Shown here: positions 1 through 47,690 of the stretch, in pieces
Layout of the letters: each line of letters starts with the position of its first letter
Position numbering within the stretch: position 1 is the first letter of the stretch
NCBI RefSeq assembly: GCF_008629685.1
Contig: NZ_VWSF01000009.1
Span: 1-64,000 of the forward strand
From: Adhaeribacter rhizoryzae
GTDB lineage: Bacteria > Bacteroidota > Bacteroidia > Cytophagales > Hymenobacteraceae
Length of the DNA stretch: 64,000 nucleotides
Direction of reading: 5' to 3'
Made by a program: the position numbers and the translations under genes
The notes under the pieces: model-generated
Seen by the model: the letters and a program-made list of their open reading frames with translations, nothing else
What the model was told of the DNA's origin: nothing
Database searches by the model: none

Positions 1-111
1 GGGTGGAAACCCCACGAAAAGCAGGCGGGGGTGATTACCCTTTTGCGCGGTTGGAATTACTTCCAGCATATCTTGCACGGGTGGACCCTGGCCCAAAAAT
101 TTGTGTCCTAA
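1..111 (+). CDS. C-terminal end of an unidentified protein (partial)
   Basis: Frame 1 is open from the window edge and ends at TAA 109-111, giving 36 residues that finish with HGWTLAQKFVS. The aromatic-rich composition and codon use look like coding sequence, and frame 2 hits an early stop. The N-terminus lies outside the window. I do not recognise the family from this short tail. It reads toward the repeat element at 223-414, with about 110 bp between them. Confidence 0.45.
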   Translation, partial: GWKPHEKQAGVITLLRGWNYFQHILHGWTLAQKFVS

Positions 112-15064: not shown

Positions 15065-15210
15065 GGGGTAAGGGAGAAACTAAATAAATATATGAAATTT
15101 GGTGCCGTAATTCAGTAGTTTTAACTAACAAAAATACTGTTTATTGAAGAATATTGTAGCTTTTCAAGTTTAACAACGATTAACAATTCTCTTGGCTTTT
15201 AAAGCTTTTC

Positions 15211-15406
15211 TTTTGAAAGATTCCATCTTTCAATGTCCAGGTGCTAACTAGCTTTACAATCCTAAGTTTGCTCCCGGCCGCGGGGCCCCGTTTGGTCATT
15301 CGGGCTGTCTAAGCTTGTTTTCCTCCTATCGTCGGAATGCTGCGCACCACAACCTTAGAAGGCCCTCATTACCCAAACTGACGTCGATTGCTTCGTAGCT
15401 GCTGCC
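15211..15406 (-). repeat. Dispersed structured intergenic element, copy B (inverted, diverged)
   Basis: Read on the minus strand this matches the elements at 223-414 and 41331-41520. It keeps the GTTTGG/CCAAAC and GGGC/GCCC pairings, the invariant CGGGGCCCCGCGGCCG block and the terminal TTGAAAGAT/ATCTTTCAA hairpin (15213-15233). The middle has changed. Where copies A and C pair TTTCC with GGAAA and TCA with TGA, this copy pairs TTGT with ACAA and CTAAG with CTTAG (plus-strand arms 15349-15358 and 15309-15318). An inner stem changes from TTGC/GCAA to TTCC/GGAG. These paired changes preserve the fold. It sits between the regulator genes and the export genes. Confidence 0.82.
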
Positions 15407-40490: not shown

Positions 40491-41156
40491 TTGAGTCGTT
40501 ACGCTATATCAGATATTCACGGGTGCAATAAAACGTTCAGATACTTAGTGCAGGAGGTGCTGCAGTTAAAGCCCGAAGACGAGTTGTTTTTGTTAGGCGA
40601 TTACATTGACCGCGGACCCGACACCAAAGGCGTACTGGATTTTATTATGGAACTCCAGGAGAAACGCTACCGGGTAACCACGCTCATGGGCAACCACGAA
40701 GATATGATGCTGCAAGCCCTCGAAGGTTCCGAATATTTGCATCATTGGTTCTTGAACGGCGGCAACCAGGCCCTCGACAGCTTTAACGTAGACGATATTA
40801 CCGAAATACCAGAAAAATATTGGCGCTTTCTGCACCAGTTAGATTTTTACGTAGAGCTGGAAGATTATTTGTTAGTACACGCCGGCTTCGATTTTGAATC
40901 GCCCAACCCGTTTCAGAACGAAAAAGCCATGCTCTGGATTCGGGATTTTAAGGTGATTGATACCTACACCAACGGCAAGACCATTATTCATGGCCACACT
41001 CCTATTCCAGTTTTCGAGATAGAAGATGCCGTAGCCGACCCCACCAGTAAAGTTATTGACATAGACGGCGGCTGTGTATTTAAAATGCGCATGGGCCACC
41101 TAACCGCTTTAAACCTGGACACCCGCCAACTGCACGCCGTCCGCAACATGGATTAA
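40491..41156 (+). CDS. Calcineurin-like serine/threonine phosphatase family protein
   Basis: 221 residues with SDIHGC, GDYIDRGPDT, GNHEDM and HGHTPIP metal-binding motifs in the order of bacterial PPP-like phosphatases (PrpA/ApaH type). The start is TTG at 40491; the conserved first strand RYAISDIHG begins three residues later and no ATG is available. Likely cytoplasmic. It could act on phosphoproteins or dinucleoside polyphosphates. It stands alone downstream of the aldo/keto reductase and is followed by the repeat-rich gap. Confidence 0.87.
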   Translation: MSRYAISDIHGCNKTFRYLVQEVLQLKPEDELFLLGDYIDRGPDTKGVLDFIMELQEKRYRVTTLMGNHEDMMLQALEGSEYLHHWFLNGGNQALDSFNVDDITEIPEKYWRFLHQLDFYVELEDYLLVHAGFDFESPNPFQNEKAMLWIRDFKVIDTYTNGKTIIHGHTPIPVFEIEDAVADPTSKVIDIDGGCVFKMRMGHLTALNLDTRQLHAVRNMD

Positions 41157-41207
41157 CTATAATATAGCCGGCGACAGAACTTGCCGGAAACTAAACTGAG
41201 AAAAACA

Positions 41208-41245
41208 ACCACCCCCAAACCCCTCCTAAACTTAGGCGGGGAGCT
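41208..41245 (+). repeat. Short C-rich hairpin repeat upstream of element C
   Basis: ACCACCCCCAAA, then the stem CCCCTCCTAA / TTAGGCGGGG with loop AC and one mismatch, then AGCT. It is almost identical to 18526-18562. It precedes structured element C by 85 bp in the same orientation, like the copy next to element B. Confidence 0.72.
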
Positions 41246-41330
41246 GGGCTAACAGTTAAGCGCGGCCGGAAGATTATAGAGCAGGCTTTTCTAAATATTT
41301 ATTGTGCTATAGTTTAATAGAGAAAAGCAG

Positions 41331-41520
41331 CAGCTACGAAGCAAACGACAGCAGTTTGGGCGATGAGGGCCTTTCAGGTTTCCGGTGCGTAGCATTGCGA
41401 GGTACGAGCAAAGGAAAGATGAGCAGCCCGAATGACCAAACGGGGCCCCGCGGCCGTGAGCAAACTTAGGCTAGTAAATGCAGTTAGCACCTTTGCCTTG
41501 AAAGATGTAATCTTTCAAAA
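41331..41520 (+). repeat. Dispersed structured intergenic element, copy C
   Basis: Nearly identical to 223-414: 3 differences over 41348-41471. All stems seen there are kept. One difference changes the CGCA/TGCG hairpin to CGTA/TGCG, where G-T pairing is retained. The terminal hairpin TTGAAAGAT / ATCTTTCAA lies at 41498-41518; only its loop changes, from GGA to GTA. It sits 164 bp upstream of the large amidohydrolase gene, after the phosphatase gene. No flanking target-site duplication is obvious. Confidence 0.85.
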
Positions 41521-41683
41521 GACAAACGTTAAACATTCTTCGCTTCTCAACACAAGCTTTTAAGCAAGGCTCATTAAAACTTTAAGCTTATTCCTTATTA
41601 GTTTATATTTATTTTTAATTTCCTTCTAAACTCTTCTCCCAGAATATTATCTTCACGATACTATATTCCCCATACTCATATTT

Positions 41684-44600
41684 ATGAAACGTTTCTACTT
41701 AACGGCTCTTCTGCTATGCGCCGGGCGCTTTCTTGCTACTGCCCAGGAAACCTTTCCGCGCAACGGTGTGTACGACGACCGCCCCGGACTGGTAGCCTTT
41801 ACCAACGCGACCATCTTTACCGATTACCAAACCCGTCTGGATAATGCTACGCTCCTCATCCGGAACGGCAAAGTAGTAGCTACTGGCGCAAAAGTAAAAA
41901 TTCCGGCCGATGCGGTAGTGGTTGATGTTAAAGGCAAATATATTTACCCCAGCCTGATTGATATTTTCTCTTCTTACGGATTGCCACCCGTTATAAAAGT
42001 TCAGGTTCCGTACGCTACCGGTCCTTCCGAAACCCAGAAAAAAGGCCCTTATAGCTGGAACCAGGCTATCCGGGCCGAAAATAATGCCGCCGAAATATTT
42101 AGGGTAGATGCCAAAGCTGCCGATGATTACCGCAAACAAGGTTTTGGTACGGTGCTGGCCCTACACCCCGACGGGATTGCCCGTGGAACGGCGGCGTTGG
42201 TAACGTTGGGCCAGAAACGCGAAAACGAAGTAATCTTACTCGACCGGGCGGCGGCCGGTTTATCTTTCGACCGGGGTTCTTCTACCCAGGATTATCCGGG
42301 CTCGCTGATGGGTGCCATTGCCTTGCTGCGCCAGACCTACTTAGATGCCGACTGGAACGCCAAAACGCCCGGCAAAGAACAAAACCTCTCGCTTAAAGCT
42401 TTTACCGATACCCGCAAACTACCCCAAATATTCGAAGCTACGGACAAACTAAATCTGGTACGGGCCGATAAAATAGGCGATGAATTTGGGCAGCAATATA
42501 TTATAAAAAGCCGCGGCGACGAATACCAGAACTTAAACGAAGTAAAAGCTACCAAAGCCACGTTAATAGTACCGCTTAATTTCCCGGATGCTTACAACGT
42601 TGAAGACCCGTTTGATGCCAGCCGCGTGGCCATCGAAGACCTAAAGCACTGGGAAATGGCCCCGGCTAATCCGGCAACCGTAGCCAAAGCCAATATTCCG
42701 TTTGCGCTCACCGCCGCCGACCTGAAAGACAAGAAGAAATTCTTACCTAACCTCCGGCAGGCTATTGCTTACGGCCTCGACGAGCAAGAAGCGTTGAAAG
42801 CTTTAACGCAAACGCCGGCCCGTTTATTAAAAGCCGAACATTTGGTAGGTGCTTTAAACCCGAATATGGTGGCTAATTTTATTATTACTTCCAAGCCAAT
42901 ATTTCAGGAAGATAATGTTATTCTGGAAAACTGGATTCAGGGCGAACAGTATAAACTTAGCGAAATTCCGGCCGATGTACGGGGTGTTTACAACTTGCAA
43001 GTTGGCCAGCAAGCGGGTTTGCGCCTCGAAATTGCCGGCAACCCCGATAAACCCGAAGCCCGCATTGCTTTTAAAGCGTCCGGCGCTACCGATACCACTA
43101 AAGTAAAAGGTAAAATATTCCTGAACGGCGATTTAATTACTTTAAGCTATAACCCCGATGTTAAAAAACAGGAAAATACGGTTAGGCTCAGCGGCTGGTA
43201 CGCCGGCCCAGCAAAAGGCTACCAGGGCGAAGGTTTATTACCCGATGCTACCCCGGTAAAATGGAATGCCAAATTAGCCAAAGCTTTAACCGTACAGGCC
43301 CGCCGCGATACAATTAAAGCAAAAGACCCGATTGTACTTGGCAATAATATTTATCCTTTCGCTGCCTTCGGCCGAACTTCTTTGCCCAAACAGGAAATCG
43401 TGCTGATTAAAAATACCACCGTCTGGACGAATGAGCAAGCCGGAAAATTAGAAAATACCGATGTGCTGTTGCGTAATGGCAAAATTGAAAAAGTAGGCAA
43501 AAACCTGAGCGCCGCTGGGGCGAAAGTGGTAGATGGTACTAACAAACATTTAACGCCCGGCATCATCGACGAACACTCTCATATTGCCATTAACGGCTCG
43601 GTAAACGAAGGAACGCAAGCAGTAAGCGCCGAAGTACGGGTGGGCGATGTAATTAATCCGGAAGATGTAAATATTTACCGGCAACTGGCGGGTGGCGTAA
43701 CGGCTTCGCAATTATTGCATGGTTCGGCCAACCCCATTGGCGGCCAATCGGCTATTATTAAATTGCGCTACGGCTTAGGCGCCGAAGACCTCAAAATTAA
43801 AGGTGCCGACAGCTACATTAAATTTGCTTTGGGCGAAAATGTAAAACGTTCGAATACCCAAAATGTAACCCGTTTTCCGCAGACCCGCATGGGCGTAGAG
43901 CAGGTATTTTACGATGCGTTTCAGCGGGCGAAAGAATACGAAAAAGCGCACCAGGCTTACAACCGTTTGTCTAAAGCTGCCAAAACCAAAGCCGAAGTAC
44001 CCCGCCGTGACCTGGAACTGGAAACGCTGGTAGAAATATTAAACAACAAACGTTTTATTACCTGCCACTCCTATGTGCAGTCCGAAATTAACATGCTCCT
44101 GAAAGTAGCCGACCAGATGGGCTTTAAAGTAAACACCTTTACGCATATTCTGGAAGGATATAAAGTAGCCGATAAAATGAAAAACCACGGCGCAGGTGCT
44201 TCTACTTTCTCCGATTGGTGGGCTTATAAAATGGAAGTAAAAGATGCCATTCCGTATAATGCTGCCATTATGCACAGTATGGGATTAGTAACCGCCATAA
44301 ATTCCGATGATGCTGAAATGGCCCGTCGCCTGAACCAGGAAGCCGCCAAAACAATGAAATACGGTGGATTATCGGAAGAAGAAGCCTTGAAACTGGTAAC
44401 CCTGAACCCAGCCAAATTATTGCACCTCGACCACCGCATGGGCAGCATTAAACCCGGCAAAGACGCCGACCTCGTACTCTGGACCGATCATCCGCTTTCT
44501 ATCTACGCCAAGCCCGCCAAAACTTATGTAGATGGCATTGCCTACTTCGATCTGGAAACCGATAAGCAACTCCAAACCGAAGTTGCTAAAGAACGCCAGC

Positions 44601-47618: not shown

Positions 47619-47690
47619 GCTTCCGTAGTTCAATGGATAGAATGTTGGTTTCCGGTACCAATGATAGGGGTTCGAATCCCTTCGGGAGCA
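47619..47690 (+). tRNA. tRNA-Arg (anticodon CCG)
   Basis: A 72-nt cloverleaf. The acceptor stem GCTTCCG/CGGGAGC has one G-T pair. The D stem is GTTC/GAAT, the anticodon stem TTGGT/ACCAA with loop TTCCGGT (anticodon CCG), and the T arm AGGGG TTCGAAT CCCTT. The discriminator is A and CCA is not encoded. It reads CGG codons. Confidence 0.95.

Follow-up and report, generated by a model that had tools for sequence, protein, structure and literature searches.

The 64-kb stretch of DNA analysed here (the window) contains three look-alike intergenic blocks, which raises the question of whether they represent small RNAs, a mobile element, or both. Profile matches placed copy A at 221-418 on the plus strand (modelled RNA core, 242-415), copy B at 15404-15206 on the minus strand (modelled core, 15209-15383) and copy C at 41328-41526 on the plus strand (modelled core, 41349-41522), in agreement with the initial annotation. 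When copy C was used as the blastn query, copy A was recovered with an E-value of 1e-71 and copy B, which is 82% identical to copy C, with an E-value of 2e-48; this likeness is far above chance. The cores of copies A and C differ at 3 of 123 positions; the 3 of 124 reported earlier becomes 4 of 124 once the next base is counted. The GC-rich block and the terminal 9-bp hairpin described at first sight were found in copies A, B and C, and the genes that neighbour the copies are indeed unrelated to each other. A REP-like hairpin (CCCCTCCTAAACTTAGGCGGGG, 41220-41241, plus strand) lies upstream of copy C and ends 107 nt short of its core, and a hairpin of the same kind precedes copy B.

Family size, host range and coding capacity

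The count of three copies describes the window's share only, as at least 56 copies were tallied in the host genome over several incomplete lists. In one search of this genome, the best 40 of 65 candidates all covered most of the query, and copy B was not among them. Counts by model R2 were 131 copies in G003, 110 in G007, 67 in G008 and one in G312, and this model found zero copies in G010 and G011. All eight genomes of the window's genus matched. Within the taxonomic family, model R1, with no more than 18 candidates scored in each genome, matched 68 of 150 genomes, which represent 4 of 6 genera (g1, g2, g3 and g6), and an order-level search in which 9 candidates were scored per genome matched in 11 of 291 genomes, ten of which belong to the family. 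A phylum-wide draw gave matches in 4 of 395 genomes, the host's own genome included, and absence in this draw is weak evidence because only 6 candidates per genome were scored. When named genomes were scanned for the motif, 77 of the 80 loci among the matches listed were from Pontibacter, Rufibacter or Sabulibacter, and the other 3 were chance-like. An exact motif match was absent from viral contigs, and blastn with copy C gave no match in plasmids. These data establish the family and its copy number, and a search of the open-licence literature found no description of such a family.

The absence of coding capacity, first claimed for the window's copies, was upheld over 110 copies, in which no coding frame accounts for the element: stop-free runs reach 75 codons at most, with a median of 55 for the longest run of each copy, only 24 of 660 copy-frames stay open from end to end, and element lengths occur in all three classes modulo 3. 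Among the properties that define MITEs, the element is multicopy, non-coding and dispersed, and the copies listed are scattered rather than arrayed in the manner of an integron attC cassette array. On the chromosome of G007, 62 of the 84 listed copies fall in the interval from 1 to 4 Mb of a 6-Mb record, which may be the part towards the terminus.

A pseudoknotted fold and its compensatory changes

The conserved part of the element spans about 175 nt, starts with a AGAAAAGC-type sequence, and comprises a long arm that branches at a three-way junction, a GC hairpin in an H-type pseudoknot, and a 3' hairpin. In copy C, with all features on the plus strand, the outer strand of P1 (GTTTGG, 41354-41359) pairs with CCAAAC at 41436-41441, and the 5' strand of P2 (41375-41383) pairs with 41413-41421; P2 is replaced as an entire helix from copy to copy, and several discrete helix types occur. 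The three-way junction carries hairpin a (GTGC/GCAT, 41385-41395) and hairpin b (TGC/GCA, 41396-41410), the latter being TCC/GGA in copy B. The GC hairpin (GGCC/GGCC, 41444-41455) lies within the block initially annotated as invariant, and its loop bases 41450-41451 pair with 41460-41461 to give the pseudoknot (41450-41461). The 3' hairpin (TTGAAAGAT/ATCTTTCAA, 41498-41518) is genus-specific and changes between species, with TGGAG.../...CTCCA arms found instead in related species, and in Pontibacter-type genomes the arm and the GC hairpin are conserved and the 3' hairpin is not.

Conservation of these helices was measured in alignment A2, which holds 83 copies: copy C and 82 copies hand-picked from the 99 that remained after 110 copies had been thinned at 93% identity, the 17 excluded by hand including the two poorest (L083 3523 and L080 3333). 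Mutual information in A2 recovered the helices as well as a pair that joins the GC hairpin's loop to a base downstream (columns 141-152). This pair, one of two in the pseudoknot, is CG in 53 rows and GC in 26, and is standard in 80 of 83 rows. Overall, both sides had changed in 29 of 43 pairs, and 95.2% of cells were paired compared to 30.5-46.2% when partners were slid by 1-3 columns, a test that favours the unslid version because the structure was derived from the same alignment. The shuffle test is free of this derivation bias and ignores the relatedness of rows; here the covariation score was 0.376 compared to 0.139 in shuffled alignments, and for every measure 0 of 500 shuffles reached the observed value. 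In alignment A4, made of 92 sequences from three genera and one outlier that were fitted to the model, 94.1% of cells were paired (34.0-47.9% when slid), both sides changed in 36 of 41 pairs, and the score was 0.450 (0.144 shuffled). Taken together, A2 and A4 establish the fold and show that compensatory changes have conserved it, and further copies thereby strongly bear out the structure proposed from the first three. The initial proposal of a conserved fold is thus supported by covariation, but not by single-sequence folding, which was not clearly better than shuffles: z was -0.4 for RNA on the plus strand, -1.4 for RNA on the minus strand and -1.6 for DNA. At such values minimum-energy folding is uninformative alone, and it was rejected as proof of structure.

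With one invariant G.U pair excluded, A2 holds 69 G.U cells vs 30 A.C cells, and the counts are 113 vs 3 in alignment A3, which leans to the model. The balance points to the plus strand as the strand that would fold; however, the G.U excess cannot tell RNA from DNA because DNA also tolerates G.T wobble. No known RNA family explains the element, as the covariance models of Rfam 15 gave no match above chance at any copy in the window and at 14 loci. The single Rfam match touching a copy was ceN109 at 41517-41545 on the minus strand, with 14.4 bits against a gathering score of 52 and an E-value of 2.5; a tRNA gene at 47619-47690 is the sole match in the window that reaches its gathering score.

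Several copies carry additional parts. Behind one copy, the 3' hairpin is repeated twice more in tandem (L036 1411-1494), and an extra hairpin, GGAAGATGCTCTTC, resembles a module-like addition inside the P2 arm of L035, L029, L092, L097 and L063 (8790-8979), with a variant in L046. At L162-L171, from the Pontibacter-type genome G084, the conserved stretch is about 110 nt longer at the 5' side and opens with a GGACAGGTCGCGACCTGTCC hairpin.

Placement, site history and candidate mobilisers

Gene orientation around the element was scored with a home-made gene caller. Among 79 single copies in the genus, 65 had a called upstream gene, which was codirectional in 59 cases (nominal P 5e-12), and downstream genes were codirectional in 45 of 78 cases (P 0.21), these orientation P values being too small because at least nine sites were counted in both G000 and G001. 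The count for tandem sites among these single copies was 38 vs 6. The placement of the element is intergenic, and most single copies in the genus lie codirectionally behind a gene. At 45 loci from other genera, mainly Pontibacter- and Rufibacter-type, the bias was weak (codirectional upstream gene, 27 vs 14, with four uncalled). Close pairs of modelled copies were all head-to-head (17 of 17 in G007, with 84 of 110 copies listed, and 6 of 6 in G003, with 66 of 131 listed), and 34 paired copies showed no gene-orientation bias; truncated copies can occur in tandem (L060 8809-8902, L036).

The Bacteroidota promoter motif TAnnTTTG was not enriched over 8 offset ranges in 81 upstream regions (z -1.6 to 1.9), and the surroundings of copy C (41100-41700) hold neither a promoter nor a terminator above chance. 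Of 59 upstream gaps, 15 contained a sense-strand terminator, as did 3 of 59 downstream gaps; this contrast is modest because antisense terminators are also upstream-rich (12 and 5) and there is more sequence in the upstream gaps (15,474 vs 11,464 bases). A strong hairpin lies upstream of 61 of 107 copies, and 37 of these hairpins end 75-125 nt before the core, vs 12 of 43 downstream; the upstream hairpins differ in sequence and many come from shared REP families, so the counts are not independent. L016 and L009 have a terminator-like hairpin on the far side of the element, which speaks against a strict rule that the element lies behind the terminator.

The history of individual sites was followed through their flanking genes. 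Copy B has kept its address and orientation in all seven genomes in which both flanking genes were matched, and in G004 a REP-like hairpin interrupts the element. Old fixed addresses of this kind look more like host retention than recent mobility. Nine sites, copy B included, are common to G000 and G001 with both flanks matched. Element identity in these nine ortholog pairs is 0.76-0.83, compared to averages of 0.70-0.78 for non-orthologous pairs, and identity over the 3.2 kb that surround copy B is 89%. With the exception of L034, the best G000 paralogue was closer than the ortholog (8 of 9 sites; 0.84-0.91), a best-of-many value that is biased upward. The pair L036/L100 was left out of this comparison because its orthology was not established. 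These data show that orthologous signal has nearly been lost inside the element, which suggests either continuing exchange between copies, as read from identity values rather than from mapped conversion tracts, or very fast evolution within a fixed fold.

Thirteen sites, picked as those without an ortholog in hand, had both flanks in a sister species; 7 were empty, 1 held a degenerate remnant and 5 were occupied. Empty sites in sister strains had been named as places to look for terminal duplications; such sites were found here in sister species, with one clean set of junctions and six sites too diverged to place them. At the clean site (G000 C1 near 212720, compared to L063), an insert of about 408 bp, made up of a REP-like hairpin, leader, core and tail, lies directly behind a terminator; TTA stands at both junctions, which at only 3 bp could be due to chance, and no inverted ends were seen by eye in this one insert. 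The presence and absence of this insert are compatible with gain in one species or loss in the other. Altogether, dispersal of the element is well supported.

The initial annotation had reported no transposase in the window, but bases 1-111 (plus strand) encode the last 36 codons of a DDE transposase. This reading frame ends about 110 bp 5' of copy A and is a neighbour, not a demonstrated part of the element. A full 451-aa copy is present in L013 (DDE_Tnp_1, E 2.9e-6), where the DDE insertion sequence (41-1396) ends in a REP-like hairpin, CCCTAAATTAGGG, that is also found upstream of copy A and several other copies; by eye, its end sequence differs from that of the folded element. In 9 of 30 loci the contig stops 224-764 bp upstream of the element, its terminal sequence being of the same kind, and the DDE insertion sequence seems to break the assembly at these loci. 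RVT_1 was found in 5 of 8 genomes and was absent from G000, G002 and G003, and a reverse transcriptase as needed partner, whether of a group II intron or a retroelement, was rejected on this ground. Y1 transposases gave no match in the element-rich genomes G008 and G021, where 18 of 18 scored candidates match the element, and are present in genera g4 and g5, which have no element match. A Y1 transposase as needed partner was likewise rejected, since its presence does not follow the element, and for the same reason the palindrome-associated, IS200/IS605-type carrier suggested initially is unsupported. With RVT_1, Y1 and the adjacent DDE element examined, no mobilising protein or autonomous partner with the same ends was found.

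Possible identities of the element

It appears fairly probable that the blocks are copies of a dispersed, non-coding and non-autonomous element of about 175-200 nt that is selected for its folded sense strand, most likely as RNA. The first proposal, a small RNA family or a non-autonomous element mobilised in trans, is partly supported: it was in the right neighbourhood, and its two halves are compatible. The element may spread as a unit of 0.2-0.4 kb, carried by trans-acting machinery that would recognise the fold, and may land in the 3' regions of genes close to hairpins. Sequence exchange among resident copies would follow, and the survivors would mainly be combinations still able to pair. 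Transcription entering from the upstream gene probably reads the element, because no promoter motif of its own was found. More tentatively, the family may exemplify a new class of mobile element that makes nothing but a complex folded RNA and in which the fold, not a protein, is the unit of selection; this would be a self-homogenising RNA population, continually reshuffled helix by helix, at as many as 100 or more addresses, many of them old and fixed, with copies lying singly behind genes or in divergent pairs.

A regulatory RNA useful to the host, whose copies would be sRNAs or UTR modules acting either on the adjacent transcript or in trans and would have been duplicated only incidentally, is possible but somewhat unlikely. 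The constancy of copy B's address and orientation in seven of seven genomes, the preservation of structure by compensatory change, the sense orientation of copies, and, in distant relatives, the end of the modelled element 2-31 nt ahead of a start codon at L142, L341, L340 and L342 are consistent with such a role; however, the orientation of downstream genes is random, the genes beside the window's copies are unrelated, the Bacteroidota promoter motif is not enriched upstream, 7 of 13 sites are empty in sister species, and locus identity inside the element is almost gone.

The head-to-head pairs bear on another alternative. Among the listed copies of G007 and G003, 19 of 23 spacers within such pairs measure 130-290 nt, and the left member differs in type from the right one by eye. 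These pairs, the unequal types of their members, the upstream hairpins and the tolerance of G.T wobble in DNA are compatible with folded DNA, in which a single-stranded hairpin would mark each end of a miniature transposon, the members of a head-to-head pair would be these two ends, and the RNA would have no function. This explanation is nonetheless decidedly unlikely, as terminal inverted repeats were not seen by eye at one clean insert, Y1 transposases are uncorrelated with the element, and sense placement behind genes is unexpected for a DNA-only element.

Six loci from outside the family were inspected for neighbouring genes, and at five of them the element lies in tandem with both neighbours, the exception being L343. 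The modelled element ends before the start codon by 19 nt at L142, 2 nt at L341, 14 nt at L340, 31 nt at L342 and 93 nt at L345, and two distant families (L341/L142 and L340) have a GH109-type gene next to the element, on opposite sides. As a sign of leader function, these positions are a lead, no more. An amplified cis-acting 5'-leader switch that once regulated a downstream gene, for example an amino-sugar gene, would account for the GH109-type genes; however, it is very unlikely, as the GH109-type gene of L340 lies upstream, with an APH-fold kinase-like gene downstream, L342, L343 and L345 have neighbours other than GH109, and the independent loci are few. A riboswitch with a fixed 5'-leader place was rejected in view of the random downstream orientation in the genus and the unrelated neighbours in the window. 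The copy at L343 is flanked on one side by a LexA-like gene and on the other by a SMODS (nucleotide second messenger synthetase) gene.

Rfam includes HEARO-type families, and a stranded guide RNA of an RNA-guided transposon nuclease (TnpB, IscB/IsrB), which would be alike in kind in its size, pseudoknot and mobile context, is highly improbable given that no Rfam match above chance was obtained in the window and at 14 loci.

The element is filed with the known structured, non-autonomous bacterial repeats, from which it differs in its pseudoknotted multi-branch fold, its divergent pairs, and its fixed addresses with exchanged content. HEARO and IsrB-type RNAs are mobile, structured and at times without their ORF; the element differs from them in having no Rfam match above chance. 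Group IIC introns insert near terminators in the sense orientation; the element, in contrast, is far shorter, has no Rfam intron match and occurs in G000 and G003, which have no RVT_1. REP and BIME sequences go with RAYT transposases; REP-like hairpins precede many copies by 75-125 nt and head-to-head pairs recall BIMEs, but the element has a much longer, branched core, and its presence does not go together with that of Y1 transposases. ERIC, YPAL, Correia/NEMIS, RUP and RPE are mainly palindromes. ERIC/RU-1, YPAL/RU-2, Correia/NEMIS, RUP and RPE are described as small mobile sequences, some with transcribed RNA structural motifs, and are like the element in being small, non-autonomous and mobile (PMC2229807). 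The element, unlike these, is not a simple palindrome and has no inverted ends at one clean insert. The repeats bcr1-bcr18 of the Bacillus cereus group are, like the element, intergenic and present in many copies; about half of their copies are reported to be expressed in UTRs, operons or ORF-less transcripts, bcr1-3 are MITE-like, and bcr10 and bcr18 have conserved secondary structures (PMC3446304). They belong to other hosts and are likened by description, not by sequence, and the element is set apart by its three-way junction and pseudoknot, its genus-wide covariation and its head-to-head pairs.

An element with a pseudoknotted three-way junction, about 50-130 addresses per genome, strong covariation and no match in Rfam 15 is unusual. 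Small bacterial repeats are usually simple palindromes. The family amounts to a natural experiment: one RNA is represented by hundreds of variants that can be aligned, many of which occupy fixed sites, and with them one can ask whether selfish spread, conversion or usefulness to the host maintains such repeats. Near several copies (L071, L083 and L019) lie very long palindromes whose arms are of the CATTCAGGAGGAA type and which constitute another repeat family.
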